Source: Flavobacteriia bacterium
GTDB taxonomy: Bacteria > Bacteroidota > Bacteroidia > Flavobacteriales_D > Crocinitomicaceae
DNA: 64,000 nt
Direction: 5' to 3'
Assembly: GCA_947446925.1 (NCBI GenBank)
Contig: CANFHU010000001.1
Location: 372,001-436,000, forward strand
Shown here: positions 8,506-18,585 of the stretch, one piece after another
Position numbering within the stretch: position 1 is the stretch's first letter
Layout of the letters: the number at the start of each line of letters is the position of its first letter
Position numbers and translations under genes: made by a program
The notes under the pieces: model-generated
What the model was told of the DNA's origin: nothing
The model's database searches: none
What the model saw: the letters and a program-made list of their open reading frames with translations, nothing else

Positions 8506-9606
8506 TTGAAAATTAGCATGAGTCTCCAATATCAGATAGCATTAACTTTACTTACCGGCGGTGGAAAAAAGAAAATTCGAAAAATATTAACCCATTTTGA
8601 AGATAGCGCAGATTTTTTTAAAGCAAGCAAACATCGTTTAAAAACAATTCCTGGCATTGGAGAGAAATTTTTACAGCAATTAGATCGAGAGAGAGCGTTA
8701 CGAGAAGCAGAAAAACACGTAGCGTATATGGATAAACATCGGATTAAAACCATGTTTTATACAGATGCTATATTTCCGTATCGCTTGAACCAATGCGAAG
8801 ATGCACCAGTTTTGATGTATACCTTGGGGGAGATGGATTGTAACTTGCCACGGATAGTTTCAATTGTCGGTACCCGCAATGCGAGTAGTTATGGGCGTAA
8901 AATATGTGAAGATTTGCTACATTCTTTTGTTGGAAAAGACATTGTTGTGGTGAGTGGTTTGGCGTATGGAATAGACATCTATGCACACAAACTATGCACG
9001 GAATTAGGGATACAAACGATTGGTGTGCTCGGACATGGTTTAGACCGAATTTATCCACAAGCACATATACCAATCGCACAGAAGATGTTGGAAAATGGAG
9101 GGTTATTGACAGAATTTCTTCCAGGAAGTAAACCAGATAGGGAAAACTTTCCGATGCGGAACCGCATTGTAGCCGGAATGTGTGATGCAACAATCGTCAT
9201 TGAAAGTGGTGAACGAGGAGGTTCTCTAATCACTGCAGAGTTAGCCAATGATTATGCGCGGGATGTATTTGCTTTTCCGGGCGATATAACACGCGAATAC
9301 TCCAAAGGGTGTAATTATCTCATTCAAAAAAATAAAGCGCATCTCATCACGTCATCGGATGATTTTTTTGAAATGATGGATTGGAAGGATACTACCAAAA
9401 CAGAAAATAAGCAGTTACAACTCTTTGCAGAACTCGACGAACAGGAACAAAAGATAGTCACCTTATTAAAAGAAAGTCAGGAAGTAAGTCTAGATGTTTT
9501 AGCTATCAAAACAGAAATTCCAGTGCGCTTAATGAGTGGAATTTTGTTGGGATTAGAATTAAAAGGAGTGGTGAAAGCCTTACCAGGGAAACGATTTGGT
9601 TTGTAA
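8506..9606 (+). CDS. dprA: DNA-processing protein DprA (start may be 8518)
   Basis: VGTRNASSYGRKICEDL, GLAYGIDIYAHK, ENFPMRNRIVAGM motifs. Confidence 0.93.
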   Translation: MKISMSLQYQIALTLLTGGGKKKIRKILTHFEDSADFFKASKHRLKTIPGIGEKFLQQLDRERALREAEKHVAYMDKHRIKTMFYTDAIFPYRLNQCEDAPVLMYTLGEMDCNLPRIVSIVGTRNASSYGRKICEDLLHSFVGKDIVVVSGLAYGIDIYAHKLCTELGIQTIGVLGHGLDRIYPQAHIPIAQKMLENGGLLTEFLPGSKPDRENFPMRNRIVAGMCDATIVIESGERGGSLITAELANDYARDVFAFPGDITREYSKGCNYLIQKNKAHLITSSDDFFEMMDWKDTTKTENKQLQLFAELDEQEQKIVTLLKESQEVSLDVLAIKTEIPVRLMSGILLGLELKGVVKALPGKRFGL

Positions 9607-9619
9607 AATGAATTCAAAA

Positions 9620-10468
9620 TTACTTTTTATCAAAAACATAATTTATTTGAAAACCTAGAATTGAGTAATCGTTGAAAGGGAGATTCACTTTTTGTTTGTC
9701 GGTCATACTATTTTTAGGTGAACTATAATTTATGTTATGCCCCCCTAAACCAGTTAAATTAAATTCTTTTTGCCCTGCAACATATAACATTAGGTCTAAT
9801 TTTTTGAATGCTTTAATCGGTTTTATTTTAAATCCTAAACGATAACGGTAACGATGCAATCCATTGGGAGAATAATATCCATCCAAAGTATTATCCGAAT
9901 TGTAGTAGGAAATAGGTTCTCCATTTAGATAATAGTATAAAATCATTTGTGCAAATGGTTCAAATTCCAAAGGCCATTTTTTGTTATCATAGGTTAGTTT
10001 AGATCCTAATGTAACACGTGCATGGTATTTTTCCATAGATGGCGTAAAATATTGAAAGGTTATGTTCTCTTCTAGTTCCAATTTTTTGTTGAAATTGAAT
10101 TTATATTTTACACCTACCGTTGGACGGTGAAAATAAATTGCGCCCAAAGAAATGTCATTGCGATAGGCTTTTAAATATTGTGGACTCCAATTATTGACAT
10201 AAATAGCATCCCCTAACATTAATATAAATTTTTTAGTCACTTTGTAGTTGAATGTCAGGTCATTCTGCATAAAATTGAAAATGTGACGCCTAGAATCAAA
10301 GCACATTAAATTGAAATTATCGATATACATTTTCTTGTTAACTCTAAAATAGAGGTAACTACTATATTCAAATTTCTTTTCACCAGACAAATCTTGCGCA
10401 ACCAATTGCTGATTACTCCAAATACATACAAGTAATAGAAAATAGACTTTTCGGAGTGAATTAGTCAT
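9620..10468 (-). CDS. outer-membrane beta-barrel protein (DUF2490-like)
   Basis: Start at 10468 gives signal peptide MTNSLRKVYFLLLVCIWSNQQLVAQ and an 8-nt overlap with the upstream gene; beta-barrel pattern. Confidence 0.6.
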   Translation of the reverse strand: MTNSLRKVYFLLLVCIWSNQQLVAQDLSGEKKFEYSSYLYFRVNKKMYIDNFNLMCFDSRRHIFNFMQNDLTFNYKVTKKFILMLGDAIYVNNWSPQYLKAYRNDISLGAIYFHRPTVGVKYKFNFNKKLELEENITFQYFTPSMEKYHARVTLGSKLTYDNKKWPLEFEPFAQMILYYYLNGEPISYYNSDNTLDGYYSPNGLHRYRYRLGFKIKPIKAFKKLDLMLYVAGQKEFNLTGLGGHNINYSSPKNSMTDKQKVNLPFNDYSILGFQINYVFDKK

Positions 10469-11165
10469 TAACATCAAAATTGATATTTTTGATAATGTCG
10501 TTATTTTTAACAATTGAAACAATCGTATCTAATAACAAATACGGAGGTGTAGCAACTGTATTTTTAGAATATACATATATTTTATATTTTCCTATTGGTA
10601 AGTTGTTAAACGTATAATTGCCACTATAATCCGTGTAACTAGCATTCGTATTGGTCGAATCTAACATATCTGTTAAATATACTTTTTCATGAATAGCAGT
10701 ATAAGAAGCACCTAGTTTGTGCCCCGTAATATTCCCGGAGATAGAAGCATTTCCTTTTAAAGGAGCATTGTCAGCAGTTTTTAAGATACCTGCATTTACC
10801 AATTGTTTGTTTTTTGTGATTTTGACCGCTAGTGTAATTGGAATTTGAGCGGAACTCAACATCGTAGTGTCATTAGAATAAACAAATAATTTATAATCAC
10901 CAGGTACCAAGTGATTAAAATTAAATGAACCATCATAACTTGTTTTTACTTTATCGCCATACCCTTGTCCATCTTGAAAAACAATATATACATCCGCATT
11001 CGCAAGTACAGTCTCTTCGCGGAGAACCGAATAATCGGAATTGAATTTGCGTACTTTGACAATACCTGTAATACCACAATTTCCTCCATATCCTGGTGTT
11101 TTATCACAAGAACTAAAGAAAAATGTAAAACCGATAAGTAGGATAAATAAACCAGTTAGTTTCAT
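10461..11165 (-). CDS. lipoprotein with two carboxypeptidase-regulatory/Cna-B-like beta-sandwich repeats
   Basis: Lipobox FFSSC; 'SYDGSFNFNHLVPGDYKLFVYS' and 'YSGNYTFNNLPIGKYKIYVYS' repeats. Confidence 0.75.
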   Translation of the reverse strand: MKLTGLFILLIGFTFFFSSCDKTPGYGGNCGITGIVKVRKFNSDYSVLREETVLANADVYIVFQDGQGYGDKVKTSYDGSFNFNHLVPGDYKLFVYSNDTTMLSSAQIPITLAVKITKNKQLVNAGILKTADNAPLKGNASISGNITGHKLGASYTAIHEKVYLTDMLDSTNTNASYTDYSGNYTFNNLPIGKYKIYVYSKNTVATPPYLLLDTIVSIVKNNDIIKNINFDVND

Positions 11166-11167
11166 CG

Positions 11168-12073
11168 TTATTTTGTTTTAATTTTAGTGTTCGAATTAAT
11201 TAAGAGTAAGGCAGATTTTTTCTTATCTTCCAATGAAAATTCATAGGTATGTATTCCTTTTGGTAAATTTAAATAGATTACGTTGGAATTACCTGGAATT
11301 AGTTTTTTCTCATCTACGTATTCTGTTTCTTGCGATTTTTCTCCAGAGATTTTAAAGGATTTTACAATGGTTCCTTTTTCTTTTACCGTTAAGATAATCG
11401 GTTTTCCGGATTGGTCTTTGTAATCTAACTCTGCTTTAATAATGATTTTTAGTTGCGTAGTATCCGTTGTATTTAAAACAAATTTTTTCTCATTCGTAAT
11501 TCTATAAAATGTTACAATGGAGTTATGCTTGTTTAAATATTTTACGCGAACAGTATCCAAAGTTAGTGCTGCTTGCATTTGTTTCCAGTTCGGCTGATTT
11601 TTGTCTTTTAAATATTTAAATTCAGCATGAATTTTTTGATCTGTATCTCCTTTATATAGTTTAACAAAGTGTTTTCCAGGTGGTACGTGAATAAAAACTT
11701 TCCCAGCAGCACTTGGTTTTCCAGTTAGTTTTTTGCTCTTATAGTTTAAACTTTTTGATACTTTTTCACTTTTTAAAGTGTCAATTTTCATTTTTTTATC
11801 GTCTAAGACATGTTGAATGGTATATGGCAAACTACTTTTCGTTGTATCTTCTAAACGAACACGTAATAATACCTCTATTTTACCAGGACCTGTTACTACC
11901 AATTCGGTGCGTTCTTTGTGTGAAAGAGCATAATAGGTTAAAAGTTTTTTAGATTGCATCTTAACAATGCTTACATGGTGTTTCGGTTTTAGTTTTTTCC
12001 CCTTTCCCTTTTGGCCAAATACCAAAGAACTCGAACTTAATAGTATTGCAATAACTAATGTGTAAATTTTCAT
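11168..12073 (-). CDS. secreted hypothetical protein of the pgs-type operon
   Basis: 301 aa, signal peptide, 2 nt from the next gene in the same direction. Confidence 0.7.
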   Translation of the reverse strand: MKIYTLVIAILLSSSSLVFGQKGKGKKLKPKHHVSIVKMQSKKLLTYYALSHKERTELVVTGPGKIEVLLRVRLEDTTKSSLPYTIQHVLDDKKMKIDTLKSEKVSKSLNYKSKKLTGKPSAAGKVFIHVPPGKHFVKLYKGDTDQKIHAEFKYLKDKNQPNWKQMQAALTLDTVRVKYLNKHNSIVTFYRITNEKKFVLNTTDTTQLKIIIKAELDYKDQSGKPIILTVKEKGTIVKSFKISGEKSQETEYVDEKKLIPGNSNVIYLNLPKGIHTYEFSLEDKKKSALLLINSNTKIKTK

Positions 12074-12078
12074 AATTT

Positions 12079-13185
12079 TTAATCGTTTGTTTTTATAATT
12101 TCATTGCCCAAAGCATGTTGTTTTTTATCTAAATAGATAGTAACTAGCAATAAACCTACTAAGAAGAATAAAGCTGTCCCTACAATTCCTACTTGGTATT
12201 TTAACGAATAATATAATTTACCTTTTCCTATTTCAGGTAACGGAATAGGTTCCATAGGTAAATCGAAAGTATTCATTAATTGCTCGACATTTTTTAAGTG
12301 AATAATTGGAATATTTTTCTTTGCCATTTCAAACATGACCCCTTTTTTGTCCGGGAAGTCCTTTAGTTTCAATGTTTCATGATACCCCGCACGAATGGCA
12401 TCGCCATTGTTATCACTACCATTACTTGCAACACCTCCACCAATATTTATAAATGCTTTTATATTCTTATGTTGGTTAAATAGTTGAATTCTTTTTGCAA
12501 TATTTCCTTCAAAACTTCCTGTATGGATGTAAGATAAGTGATTTCTTTTTATTGCAGCTTCCACTAAATCACGTCCTTCTCCACTCAATGCTCTACCGAT
12601 ATCTAAATTACCCCCCATAGAAGCCGCAATGGAATGATTCGTGAAAATTTTATCCTCAAATAATTCATGTTCCATATCTACCCAAGTAAATTCAGGGTCA
12701 TTTGCACCCCAAGAAGATGCTGTTACGGAGGATATGATAATTGGTTTAATTCCTAGTGTTTGAATTGCAGCCAATGCAGCAACATTTAAGCCAGGGAAGG
12801 ATCCAGTCATACAAATCGCTACTTTATCCCCTTTTTTTAGCTTCGCGTCTTTTAATAGTTGCACAATCATCCCTCCAAAATTTGGATTCATCGTCGATGC
12901 CTTAATAGGTAAAGAACCACTTCCAGTTGTTATAGGCGTATATTGTTCACCAATCAATCCTGTTTCATTAGGATCGTTGATATTGTCTACGAAATCTACA
13001 TTTTCAAAGCGTTCATTTTTTAAGTGTAATAATGCTTTTTGTGTCAATCTAGAAGCAGCAATTTTTTCCGTATACCATGCTTCTTTGACGTTCTTCTTAC
13101 TTGTTTCTACGATATATAATAGCCCGATTGCAAGTAGTGCTAATGTAGTTAGAACAGATGTCGAACGGATGGATATTTTTGCCAT
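12079..13185 (-). CDS. poly-gamma-glutamate system protein (PgsW-like)
   Basis: N- and C-terminal TM; KKGDKVAICMTGSFPGLNVAALAAIQTLGIKPIIISSVTASSWGAN as in the 'poly-gamma-glutamate system protein' family; between pgsC and envelope genes. Confidence 0.8.
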   Translation of the reverse strand: MAKISIRSTSVLTTLALLAIGLLYIVETSKKNVKEAWYTEKIAASRLTQKALLHLKNERFENVDFVDNINDPNETGLIGEQYTPITTGSGSLPIKASTMNPNFGGMIVQLLKDAKLKKGDKVAICMTGSFPGLNVAALAAIQTLGIKPIIISSVTASSWGANDPEFTWVDMEHELFEDKIFTNHSIAASMGGNLDIGRALSGEGRDLVEAAIKRNHLSYIHTGSFEGNIAKRIQLFNQHKNIKAFINIGGGVASNGSDNNGDAIRAGYHETLKLKDFPDKKGVMFEMAKKNIPIIHLKNVEQLMNTFDLPMEPIPLPEIGKGKLYYSLKYQVGIVGTALFFLVGLLLVTIYLDKKQHALGNEIIKTND

Positions 13186-13189
13186 GAAA

Positions 13190-13645
13190 TTAAATATTTG
13201 ATATTAATGCTCCTCCAAAACAAACGATTACGGTTAGTCTAACAATGATAGAAGTTATTGCTAACATTGCTATTGTTTTTGGATAACCTTGTTTTGCGGA
13301 CCAATGTGCTATTAATCCAGGAATAACCCATCCAATTGCACTAAATTCAGCAGTACTATTTTCCGTATTAAAAATTAAAAAGTGATGGGATAAGATGGAT
13401 AATAATGTTCCAACTAAAAGTGCTACAACCATTTGTCGTCGTCCAAACAGAAAGGTGAATTTGGATATAAGTAAAATGATTAAGTATGTAGCTAAGGAAA
13501 TTACGACAGTTCCTATTAATTTATCTGGGCTATTTAATTGTAAAGCAATGTAACCAGGAATGATTACTCCACCGGCAGCTAGTCCGAAGGCTTCTATAAA
13601 AAACAAACTGAGTACAATTCCCAGTGTGATTGCTAATTCTACCAT
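13190..13645 (-). CDS. pgsC: poly-gamma-glutamate biosynthesis protein PgsC/CapC
   Basis: 151 aa multi-TM; EAFGLAAGGVIIPGYIAL as in PgsC; overlaps pgsB by 1 nt. Confidence 0.85.
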   Translation of the reverse strand: MVELAITLGIVLSLFFIEAFGLAAGGVIIPGYIALQLNSPDKLIGTVVISLATYLIILLISKFTFLFGRRQMVVALLVGTLLSILSHHFLIFNTENSTAEFSAIGWVIPGLIAHWSAKQGYPKTIAMLAITSIIVRLTVIVCFGGALISNI

Positions 13646-14820
13646 TATTTTACTTGTTTACTTTCAAAATATTTCACTAATTCGGCACCACCGGCACCCA
13701 TATTTCCTATCCCAACAATTGTCGTTTTCTTTTTCGAAGCATTGCATAAGTCAATATATACTTCTTCGGTTGGTTTACTTCCTATTGGAACAATGTCTTC
13801 GCGTTTGATTTTTTGTTTGATTCCCATTTCTACTACTAAATCTACCACATCACCAATTAAGGCTACAGAACTATAATTCAATTTTAATGCAATCAATTCG
13901 ATGAGTTGTTTTGCTCTATCTTGTCGATCTTTTCGCGTATTTAGTAAAATGATGAGGTGTTCGTCTGCATCTACATGTTTTACAATGCTATTCCATATCA
14001 TCAATGAAGATTCAGGGTCATTTGCAGCAAATGCATTGTAGAAATTAATGCGCTTATCGTCATAGTTTACTGTCACTTTCGTCAACACTCCCTCATCTGG
14101 AATTGTCTTTTTCATTTCTGCTAAAGCAAGTTCACGATCGACTCCTAATTCTGCGCAAATATCTAATGCTAAAGAAACATTTTCTTTGTGTTCTATATAG
14201 GTAAAACCCAGCATATCTTCATCGGTAATAGTACTTGCTAGTGCTTGATGAATATGTGTATTTCGTTTTTTAGCAACCGCTTCAAACATATCTAAACGTC
14301 GATCTTCACTCGTGAAAATTTTGGAGTTTTTTGGAATCGTTCCACACAACGCTCGACCAACATCGTCTAATCCTGGTCCCATGACATCTAAGTGGTCTAA
14401 ACGAACGTTGGTAATAACACCAATCGTAGACTTCACCATTTGTAATTCGGTAATACGTTGGTATTGTGGTTGTAAAGCCATGCATTCAATGATCAACACT
14501 TGCGCATTGTTTTTAGCACAAAATTTTATTACTTTCAGTTGTTCTAAGATGTTTGCTTTCTCGTTTCGGTGAATGGCTGCTTCACTTCCGTCCGGGAGTA
14601 TGATGCGTGGAAATGTTCCAGTAACTTTCGTGTAGGTTTTGTATCCACCAGCTCTCAAACCTGCACCAATTAATCGAGTCACACTTGATTTTCCTCGCGT
14701 ACCATTGACATGTATTCTTACTGGTATCGATTTTACATAACGTTGATGTATTTGGTATTCAAGGATACCATAAGCGATAAGAATTGATAATAAAATGAAG
14801 GTGACGTAAAAACTAATCAT
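13645..14820 (-). CDS. pgsB: poly-gamma-glutamate synthase PgsB/CapB
   Basis: Mur-ligase-type P-loop HVNGTRGKSSVTRLIGAGLRAGG; ITNVRLDHLDVMGP. Confidence 0.9.
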   Translation of the reverse strand: MISFYVTFILLSILIAYGILEYQIHQRYVKSIPVRIHVNGTRGKSSVTRLIGAGLRAGGYKTYTKVTGTFPRIILPDGSEAAIHRNEKANILEQLKVIKFCAKNNAQVLIIECMALQPQYQRITELQMVKSTIGVITNVRLDHLDVMGPGLDDVGRALCGTIPKNSKIFTSEDRRLDMFEAVAKKRNTHIHQALASTITDEDMLGFTYIEHKENVSLALDICAELGVDRELALAEMKKTIPDEGVLTKVTVNYDDKRINFYNAFAANDPESSLMIWNSIVKHVDADEHLIILLNTRKDRQDRAKQLIELIALKLNYSSVALIGDVVDLVVEMGIKQKIKREDIVPIGSKPTEEVYIDLCNASKKKTTIVGIGNMGAGGAELVKYFESKQVK

Positions 14821-14927
14821 AACTTGACTTCAAGACGTCAAATCTATAAAAAGTTGTCTATTCTATATCAAATAATATAAATCTAGATTGATTCTAAATT
14901 AAAAATACGATTATTTCATAATTCCTA

Positions 14928-16169
14928 TCACCCTTTCACCAACTCTATCACCGTAATCTCCGGTAAAATTCCAACCCTTCCTGGGAATCCTAAGAATCCA
15001 AAACCACGGTTTACATAAATATGTTGGTCGTCCTTTGGATATAAGCCCGCCCATTGTGGGTAGATGTATTTCACCGGGCTCCATTTGATTCCTGGTATTT
15101 CGATACCAAATTGCATTCCGTGGGTGTGACCTGCCAAGGTTAAGTGCACTTTTTTCTCATGTGGTACCGTAACCGCTTCCCAATGGGATGGGTCGTGGGA
15201 TAATAATACTTTAAACATTGAATCTTCAATAGGAGCAATGGCTTTATCCAAATCTCCATGTTTTACAAATCCACGTTTCCCCCAGTTTTCCACTCCAATT
15301 AGTGCAATTTTTTCTCCGTCTTTTTCCAAATACAAACTTTCATTCAATAACAAACGGAATCCGATTTTACCATGCACCTCTTTTAAATCTTGCAAGTTTT
15401 TTTCTTTCGCTTCCTCTGAAGGCCATTGCACATAATCGCCATAGTCATGATTTCCCAAAATAGAAAACTTACCGTGTGGTGCATCTAATTGCGAAAAATG
15501 TTCTATCCAAGGATCCATTTCGCTTGCAACGTTGTTTACCAAGTCACCCGTAAAGACCAATATATCGCTTTTTTGAGCATTTGCTAGTTCAATTCCTCGT
15601 CTAACTGCTGCTACATCGTCCAAGGAGCCAGAATGTATATCCGAAAGTTGCGTGATTTTAAATCCATGAAAAGCATCCGGTAAATCTTTAAATGCAATTT
15701 TTACTTTATGTACGCGGTAATCGTATTTTCCTTTAATCATTCCCCAGGCCGTTCCAACGAATGGAATCGCTGCTAATCCTAAAGCTATTTGACTCACAAA
15801 TTTTCGTCGACCCCACATGTGTAAATCTTCCGCACCAACAGCATGACGCATTTTTTGGATGCCTACATATCCACCTTGGATCAAACGAACGATGTCTTCA
15901 ATCAATAAAAATGGGGTAACAATGATTTTTGGAGCTAAGGAAAGAATGGCTAATCCCATGATGTAACTTCCGCCTTTTGGAGGTCCACCCGCCATTTTAC
16001 CGGATGCACCTACGTAGATGATAATCACCATTAATACAATGTCAAACAACCAGTAGGCATAATTTACATAGACCGCTTTGGGACCTGTAAAAACCGTTTT
16101 CATTGCTTGAAAAACATATAAATCAACCAATAACCAAATGGCAATAAAAATTAAAAAGCGAAAAATCAT
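14928..16169 (-). CDS. membrane-anchored metallophosphoesterase (YaeI-like)
   Basis: ITQLSDIHSGS, VFTGDLVN, LGNHDYGDY, LSHDP, LAGHTHGMQ motifs. Confidence 0.9.
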   Translation of the reverse strand: MIFRFLIFIAIWLLVDLYVFQAMKTVFTGPKAVYVNYAYWLFDIVLMVIIIYVGASGKMAGGPPKGGSYIMGLAILSLAPKIIVTPFLLIEDIVRLIQGGYVGIQKMRHAVGAEDLHMWGRRKFVSQIALGLAAIPFVGTAWGMIKGKYDYRVHKVKIAFKDLPDAFHGFKITQLSDIHSGSLDDVAAVRRGIELANAQKSDILVFTGDLVNNVASEMDPWIEHFSQLDAPHGKFSILGNHDYGDYVQWPSEEAKEKNLQDLKEVHGKIGFRLLLNESLYLEKDGEKIALIGVENWGKRGFVKHGDLDKAIAPIEDSMFKVLLSHDPSHWEAVTVPHEKKVHLTLAGHTHGMQFGIEIPGIKWSPVKYIYPQWAGLYPKDDQHIYVNRGFGFLGFPGRVGILPEITVIELVKG

Positions 16170-17682: not shown

Positions 17683-18090
17683 TTATAAAATAAAATGTAT
17701 ATAAATTTCCAAAAGTATTGCAAAAAGTACACAACCCAATAATATAGGACTATTGTCAAATAATTCCATTATACTCAAATTATTGGATTTTTTTTCAATC
17801 GTATTTAAACTCTCATATTCATTATTAGATTCATTAATTGGATTTTGATAATTTAATCCGCTTGATGCATTAATTTTCTTCTCAATCTCTTTTAGTTTTC
17901 TATTATTTTTGACATTTGACCGAATATTAACAGCCCAAATCACTAATAATATCCATAATACTACACCAGCTCCAAATAAAGCCGAGGTGAAAATGGCAAC
18001 AACTTGTAATATTATTGCAATTAAACCAGAAATGATTCTACCGTTTAAAAGCATTGAAAAACCAGGGAGTAAGATTGCGAGTAGTAGCAT
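17683..18090 (-). CDS. small membrane protein, tandem paralogue A
   Basis: 135 aa; first ~75 aa nearly identical to the 18097-18585 product. Confidence 0.7.
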   Translation of the reverse strand: MLLLAILLPGFSMLLNGRIISGLIAIILQVVAIFTSALFGAGVVLWILLVIWAVNIRSNVKNNRKLKEIEKKINASSGLNYQNPINESNNEYESLNTIEKKSNNLSIMELFDNSPILLGCVLFAILLEIYIHFIL

Positions 18091-18585
18091 TGTTTATTAT
18101 GAATAAATGGTCAGTAAAACACCAAAAATGATGAAAATTAACACGATAACAATTTCAATATTTTTAAAAAAATTAAAATGTTTTTTATCCAAAGTAATAT
18201 TTTGTTCCTGTGAATTTACAATCTCTTTTTTTTCAAATAGTCTATCTGTTTCTTGAATAAACACTTCCTCAGAAATTACACCTCTGTCTAACATCGATTT
18301 TAAACTCAAAAATTCAGTTTTAGATTCATTAATTGGATTTTCATTATTTAATTCACGTGACGAATTAATTTTCTTCTCAATCTCTTTTAGTTTTCTATTA
18401 TTTTTGACATTTGACCGAATATTAACAGCCCAAATCACTAATAATATCCATAATACAACACCAGCTCCAAATAAAGCCGAGGTGAAAATGGCAACAACTT
18501 GTAATATTATTGCAATTAAACCAGATATAATTCTTCCATTTAAAAGCATTGATAAGCCGGGGATTGTGATTGCGAGTAGTAACAT
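17826..18585. repeat. tandem duplication, 495-bp period
   Basis: Bases ~17826-18090 are near-identical to ~18321-18585. Confidence 0.85.
18097..18585 (-). CDS. small membrane protein, tandem paralogue B with SHOCT-like segment
   Basis: 162 aa; shared N-terminus with paralogue A, then FLSLKSMLDRGVISEEVFIQETDRL resembling SHOCT. Confidence 0.7.
   Translation of the reverse strand: MLLLAITIPGLSMLLNGRIISGLIAIILQVVAIFTSALFGAGVVLWILLVIWAVNIRSNVKNNRKLKEIEKKINSSRELNNENPINESKTEFLSLKSMLDRGVISEEVFIQETDRLFEKKEIVNSQEQNITLDKKHFNFFKNIEIVIVLIFIIFGVLLTIYS

Follow-up and report, generated by a model that had tools for sequence, protein, structure and literature searches.

In Bacillus, PgsB and PgsC are established to polymerize poly-gamma-glutamate (PGA) and to extrude the chain. 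The CapsuleFinder definition of a PGA capsule treats CapB and CapC as mandatory, CapA and CapE as accessory and PgsS as forbidden, and PGA capsule genes have been reported from most phyla (PMC5542703). B. subtilis with pgsBC alone makes PGA, which is L-rich, and the authors of that work concluded that PgsA is not essential (PMC6029982). Here we describe a six-gene pgs locus of a Flavobacteriia bacterium, located in a 64,000-nucleotide (nt) stretch of contig CANFHU010000001.1 (the window) and encoding PgsB, PgsC, a PgsW protein, a secreted protein (T1), a lipoprotein (T2) and a predicted outer-membrane beta-barrel (T3). We consider it reasonably probable that this locus is an operon for making and exporting PGA that is adapted to cells with two membranes: PgsB and PgsC would make and extrude the chain, PgsW and T1 would receive it, and the barrel would release it or hold it at the surface.

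All six genes lie on the minus strand between positions 9620 and 14820 of the window and are transcribed in the order pgsB, pgsC, pgsW, T1, T2, T3:

13645-14820, minus strand: pgsB, poly-gamma-glutamate synthetase, a Mur-ligase-type amide ligase of 391 amino acids (aa; TIGR04012), with one N-terminal transmembrane (TM) segment and the P-loop GTRGKSSV
13190-13645, minus strand: pgsC, multi-TM membrane subunit, 151 aa (TIGR04011, PF14102), with four hydrophobic segments
12079-13185, minus strand: pgsW, poly-gamma-glutamate system protein, 368 aa (TIGR04332), with an alpha/beta domain, probably periplasmic, between two TM segments
11168-12073, minus strand: T1, secreted cationic protein, 301 aa, isoelectric point (pI) 9.9, with a signal-peptide-like N terminus and two predicted tandem jelly rolls resembling carbohydrate-binding modules (CBMs)
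10461-11165, minus strand: T2, accessory lineage-specific lipoprotein, 234 aa (PF13620), with two carboxypeptidase-regulatory-like (transthyretin-like) domains
9620-10468, minus strand: T3, predicted outer-membrane beta-barrel of about 12 strands (AlphaFold2, Foldseek), 282 aa, pI 9.4, with a signal peptide
9607-14927: the whole cassette, between dprA (8506-9606, plus strand) and a housekeeping metallophosphoesterase gene (14928-16169, minus strand), both outside the system

The genes are closely packed: pgsB and pgsC overlap by 1 nt, and gaps of 4, 5 and 2 nt separate pgsC from pgsW, pgsW from T1, and T1 from T2. T2 and T3 overlap by 8 nt, ATGACTAA, which contains the T2 stop codon and the ATG at 10468; this overlap holds if the 282-aa T3 begins at that ATG, which is most likely its start, rather than at the TTG at 10522 chosen for the mechanical open reading frame (ORF). 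Scans for promoters and terminators gave a result no better than shuffled sequence. A stretch of 3-43 nt, without any gene, separates dprA from the metallophosphoesterase gene in three congeners (L123, L124, L125), indicating that gain or loss involved all six genes at once, as one cassette. The sister genome L021 has the six genes at this location too, and there additional genes separate pgsB from the metallophosphoesterase gene.

The initial annotation had described six minus-strand genes with small overlaps or gaps and had identified PgsB, PgsC and a PgsW-like protein; the layout was borne out, and all three proteins scored above their profile cut-offs. PgsB reached 425.8 bits against TIGR04012 (cut-off 222.7), and its P-loop and the surrounding residues are invariant among relatives; PgsC reached 126.8 bits against TIGR04011 (cut-off 96.45; PF14102, E 2e-32); and PgsW reached 322.8 bits against TIGR04332 (cut-off 100), with residues 12-316 aligned to positions 3-306 of 307. 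The mandatory CapsuleFinder pair, CapB and CapC, is thus present, adjacent and above curated cut-offs. It had also been noted that no CapA-like gene was visible, and this extends to the genome as a whole (3.15 Mb in 50 contigs, rated 100% complete): CapA (PF09587) matched nowhere in it, whereas seven control genomes gave matches in the same search, so no homolog elsewhere completes a standard system. PgsW likewise did not match PF09587. Neither CapD/gamma-glutamyltransferase (GGT; PF01019) nor the PF05908 PGA hydrolase was found in the genome, with control genomes positive for both; PgdS/PgsS-type NlpC hydrolases were not searched for separately. The 2-5 nt gaps between genes leave no room for the small single-TM peptide CapE/PgsE. 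PF09587 was also entirely absent from 20 of 44 other PgsW-positive genomes searched, many of which are metagenome assemblies of unknown completeness. The accompanying statement that CapA/PgsA is also needed proved too strong: since pgsBC alone suffices in B. subtilis (PMC6029982) and CapsuleFinder rates CapA as accessory (PMC5542703), the absence of CapA is not a defect. In several FCB (Fibrobacterota-Chlorobiota-Bacteroidota) genomes of the PgsW-positive set, PF09587 is part of an open frame that spans about 1,000 aa, compared with about 380 aa for the usual CapA.

CapA also has a metallophosphoesterase fold, and the metallophosphoesterase gene next to the cassette (PF00149) is on the same strand, 107 nt upstream of pgsB, a position from which its product might replace CapA. 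However, the gene adjoins dprA in the congeners that lack the whole cassette, and it is several genes away from pgsB in L021. We therefore rejected it as a linked stand-in for CapA; it is not part of the system, and the chance that it serves as CapA is, in our judgment, negligible.

PgsW has hydrophobic segments at residues 4-22 and 332-350, and T1 gave no Pfam or NCBIfam match of any worth; sequence searches with PgsB, PgsW and T1 against solved structures returned no useful match. In five Krumholzibacteriota-type genomes, PgsW and T1 are encoded by a single gene of 670-686 codons:

L075, 9950-12007: PgsW-T1 fusion
L081, 4401-6461: PgsW-T1 fusion
L082, 9977-12007: PgsW-T1 fusion
L085, 4474-6486: PgsW-T1 fusion
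L095, 5056-7077: PgsW-T1 fusion

Each fused gene contains a PgsW part (377-391 bits) followed by a T1 part (88-106 bits), and the hydrophobic segments fit a protein with its N terminus inside, a periplasmic PgsW domain, a short basic cytoplasmic loop, a third segment standing where the T1 signal peptide would be, and a periplasmic T1. These fusions are Rosetta-stone evidence that PgsW and T1 form a physical pair, and they fix the compartment in which the pair probably resides. The initial annotation had assigned a hypothetical export or anchoring route to the last three genes; given the fusions, PgsW belongs to that route as well. An apparent PgsB-PgsC-PgsW triple fusion in an Ignavibacteria metagenome contig (L078, 3888-6596, a false 902 aa) was rejected as an artefact, as pgsC is out of frame and pgsB is missing a stretch.

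T1 contains an internal repeat (HHalign, 99.8%, E 1.9e-27) and is the product of an ancient duplication. An AlphaFold2 model of the L082 fusion (pLDDT 89), a fused homolog in whose alignment the T1 of the window was one row, consists of the alpha/beta PgsW domain between two long helices, followed by two jelly rolls. In Foldseek searches the jelly rolls matched CBM22 tandems, CBM51, N-glycanase tandems and BcsB, at the level of the fold and with low whole-chain TM-scores; the PgsW domain had no clear match in the list obtained from this model. T1 is also strongly basic, with a pI above 8.5 in 53 of 54 members (median 9.8) and a net charge of +7.3 per 100 aa, compared with -1.2 in other secreted ORFs (rank test p 5e-17, uncorrected for kinship). 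Arg71 is shared by 98% of T1 rows, and 88% have Arg where the protein of the window has Lys213. Such a charge would suit the binding of a polyanion.

To determine how widely this arrangement occurs, we scanned 85,488 GTDB species genomes with a PgsW alignment and recovered 73 loci, 63 of them with full PgsW, mostly in the FCB superphylum (the main phyla being Bacteroidota, Ignavibacteriota/Chlorobiota, Zixiibacteriota, Krumholzibacteriota, Calditrichota, Electryoneota and Neomarinimicrobiota). In this collection, which was seeded on PgsW and from which the neighborhood hidden Markov models were themselves built, pgsB was present in 53 of the 54 full-PgsW loci with enough upstream sequence, and pgsC, once hidden cases had been inspected frame by frame, in 53 of 54. 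Of the 61 loci in which T1 could be tested for, 59 have it either after PgsW or fused to PgsW (53 directly after, 5 fused, 1 behind a shadow ORF). The two loci without T1 (L093 and L099) are both outside FCB, and L093 has a GGT gene after PgsW. A barrel of one of three families was found in the cluster in 48 of 52 loci; in L088 a TonB-receptor-like gene occupies its place. The distribution is patchy, with TIGR04332 in 9 of 249 genomes of the phylum and 4 of 100 of the family. PgsB was above its cut-off in exactly the same 9 of 249 genomes, adjacent to PgsW in each, and the T1 profile matched four of the 249, all PgsW-positive and all at the cluster; that T1 never occurs without PgsW is a statement about this 249-genome sample. 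The absence of the six genes as a block from three congeners, together with the recurrence of pgsB-pgsC-pgsW-T1 across several phyla, indicates that their arrangement is not due to chance.

These data bear on whether pgsB-pgsC-pgsW alone is the system, like other gram-negative capBCA loci, with the tail genes as unrelated hitch-hikers. T2 in just eight loci, T3 in one clade and a PgsBCW subtype that lacks T1 would all fit such a view. It is difficult to reconcile, however, with T1 after or fused to PgsW in nearly every testable locus of several phyla and never away from the cluster in the 249 genomes, or with L080, in which the gene order is permuted yet T1, T2 and T3 remain with pgsBCW. Synteny and fusions together are already strong evidence against hitch-hiking, and we regard it as very improbable. 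A further check was whether the three tail genes co-occur with pgsBC: T1 and the barrel are syntenic with it in nearly all relatives, but T2 is found in eight loci. The proposed three-gene tail route is therefore plausible, although its members are unequal, T1 belonging to the core, the barrel filling a conserved slot with changing families, and T2 having arrived late.

The barrel slot varies in its occupant. An AlphaFold2 model of T3 (pLDDT 79, pTM 0.75) is all-beta with an N-terminal helix and about 12 strands forming a putative barrel of the outer-membrane type, and the nearest solved folds by Foldseek were all membrane barrels, e.g., PcoB, LpxR, OmpG, NanC and FadL, although with low TM-scores (0.29-0.45 among the top ten). 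T3 had been called a DUF2490-like barrel; the model supports the barrel, and 3 of 14 close relatives match DUF2490 (PF10677; best E 1.4e-7), but T3 itself does not. All 13 T3 members are basic. T3, brl5 and a third family ("var", from Winogradskyella, Seonamhaeicola and one other member of the Flavobacteriaceae) fill the slot, and all three are barrel-like, with mostly aromatic or hydrophobic C-termini and an alternation of hydrophobicity that is on average well above that of other ORFs. HHalign detected no homology between T3 and the others (4.7% with brl5, 0.6% with var), and a weak relationship between brl5 and var (66% over the C-terminal third). In an IQ-TREE phylogeny of PgsW (63 rows), the T3 clade is nested among brl5 loci and the var group is nested inside the T3 clade, suggesting that the slot has been refilled at least twice, from brl5 to T3 to var.

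That the slot persists while one barrel family gives way to another argues for a need of the pathway for an outer-membrane barrel, without showing what that barrel does. It also bears on the idea that the product is periplasmic or another gamma-linked peptide, such as an osmoprotectant or an envelope modification, with the barrel serving uptake or envelope integrity. PgsB is assigned by homology only, the polymer is a prediction in all relatives of this type, and the genome has no PF05908 hydrolase, all of which would be compatible with such a product. The persistence of the barrel position through changes of family nevertheless suggests that the pathway has a requirement at the outer membrane, and we consider a periplasmic or other product distinctly unlikely.

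Several neighbors of the barrels recur. At the fusion loci the gene after PgsW-T1 encodes a brl5-type barrel, and in L075 and L082 the barrel gene is followed by a gene for a protein of 815-817 aa with LVIVD and FGE-sulfatase domains; L081 and L095 have genes of similar size. Beside the operon in L010 and L011 lies the gene for a gingipain-like peptidase (family C25; about 1,250 aa) that bears a sorting tail of the type IX secretion system (T9SS), and an LVIVD lipoprotein of about 330-350 aa is encoded after the barrel; genes of these sizes recur at many brl5 loci. The T3 profile matched the window genome and three others of the 249 more weakly, the two stronger of which are in an unrelated setting. 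Distant T3-like barrels are encoded in L111 (5501-6292) and L112 (8231-9043), in genomes without pgs genes, where each adjoins a similar protein of about 360 aa and then a putative transporter gene (566 and 349 aa), possibly representing another conserved cluster.

T2 had been identified as a carboxypeptidase-regulatory lipoprotein, and this holds: PF13620 matched two stretches with 42.9 bits (cut-off 32.3), and the SC of the lipobox is conserved among relatives. It is confined to eight PgsW loci and is a late, lineage-specific addition. A second kind of PgsBCW locus (L013-L017) has adjacent pgsB, pgsC and TIGR04332 genes with a GGT gene in the cluster and lacks T1. L013-L015 encode, after PgsW, a protein that carries a T9SS sorting tail, and the surroundings in L015 include DUF6305, AstE/AspA-like, DctM-like and PorV/PorQ-family genes. 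L012 is mixed, with T1 and a barrel, and a GGT gene two genes upstream of pgsB. GGT and the T1-barrel pair look like alternative solutions that define two diderm subtypes.

This pattern raises the question of anchoring rather than export: the polymer would leave elsewhere, and T1, T2 and the barrel would keep the capsule at the surface, the job of CapD in B. anthracis. The lack of a GGT/CapD homolog here and the presence of GGT in clusters of the T1-less subtype, as if the two were alternatives, are in keeping with this explanation, as is T2, a lipoprotein with binding-type domains. Fusion of T1 to the inner-membrane protein PgsW in five genomes, on the other hand, places T1 at the synthase and away from the surface. 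Anchoring in place of export seems to us unlikely, though it is the strongest of the competing explanations.

In the export system that we favor, PgsB, a cytoplasmic ATP-dependent ligase, and the membrane subunit PgsC would join glutamate by gamma-amide bonds and push the growing chain through the inner membrane. PgsW, with its two TM helices and periplasmic alpha/beta domain, would sit on the synthase and replace CapA; its constant position between pgsC and T1 suggests that it binds the inner-membrane complex. The jelly-roll tandem of T1, bound to PgsW, would take the polyanionic chain and guide it across the periplasm, a role to which its fold and charge point. The outer-membrane barrel, here T3, would let the chain out or retain it at the surface, as suggested by the conserved slot, and T2 would probably brace or anchor the outer-membrane end. 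It could also be, though we hold this more tentatively, that PgsBC, PgsW, T1 and the barrel constitute a complete trans-envelope poly-amino-acid secretion machine, with PgsW-T1 as a BcsB-like guide and with exchangeable exit barrels, invented once in FCB and spread as a cassette.

Several points weigh against the export interpretation. The gamma-linked polymer is a prediction in every carrier organism. T3, the only barrel family modeled, resembles no known exporter of a polymer in sequence or, at all closely, in structure (the highest TM-score, by query length, was about 0.45), and barrels of 12 strands can be narrow or closed. Jelly rolls are widespread, and their presence does not establish what T1 binds or what it does; the fold was, moreover, predicted on a distant fused homolog other than the T1 of the window. 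Finally, the L013-L017 subtype and the non-FCB loci L093 and L099 lack T1, indicating that PgsBCW can function in its absence.

Neither the synthase nor the TIGR04332 family is new, and NCBIfam names PgsW no more precisely than "system protein". In the literature searched we found no description of T1, the PgsW-T1 fusion, the barrel slot or the passage of PGA across a diderm periplasm and outer membrane, and no paper naming PgsW or TIGR04332 in this sense. Our analysis names likely parts by which a long, highly charged PGA chain would cross the diderm envelope, parts that travel together across several phyla and for which the fusions supply a physical link; it accounts for the lack of CapA with no need to suppose that a gene is missing, and it sets apart two diderm subtypes, one with T1 and a barrel and the other with GGT. 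The idea is open to experiment, since one carrier (locus L040) is a named strain from a culture collection, Winogradskyella haliclonae CCM 8681. Elsewhere in the window (17683-18585), two neighboring paralogous small membrane proteins (135 and 162 aa) have near-identical N-terminal halves, reflecting a recent tandem duplication.

Compared with the pgsBCA(E)/capBCADE operons of Bacillus, the locus has PgsB and PgsC in the same order and above curated cut-offs, but its genome lacks CapA/PgsA, CapD and PF05908 and has PgsW, T1 and an outer-membrane barrel instead. The capBCA genes of Francisella are likewise found in a Gram-negative organism, and are described as a three-gene locus (PMC4230796). 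The product of Francisella "capA" is listed as "poly-gamma-glutamate system protein" (PMC5362203), the product name used by TIGR04332, so that, going by this annotation, the Francisella locus may also be PgsBCW. The PGA operon of Candidatus Cloacimonadota, a candidate phylum that does not belong to the Gram-positives, combines CapB and CapC with a CapA-like gene; its reported organization is the typical Gram-positive one, and outer-membrane genes are not mentioned in the passages found (PMC13082233). A parallel in layout is the cellulose system, in which BcsB has two CBD-like and flavodoxin-like repeats and BcsC is an outer-membrane barrel (PMC11379886). The polymer and the synthase differ, no sequence homology was detected, and there is no TPR-barrel BcsC here; the BcsB-like features of PgsW-T1 consist of the fold resemblance and the fusion, sequence searches against solved structures having given no homology. 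The likeness is thus an analogy of layout, with no homology claimed: both BcsA-BcsB-BcsC and, as predicted, the pgs locus combine an inner-membrane synthase, a membrane-anchored periplasmic component with two CBD-like repeats and alpha/beta domains, and an outer-membrane barrel (PMC11379886).

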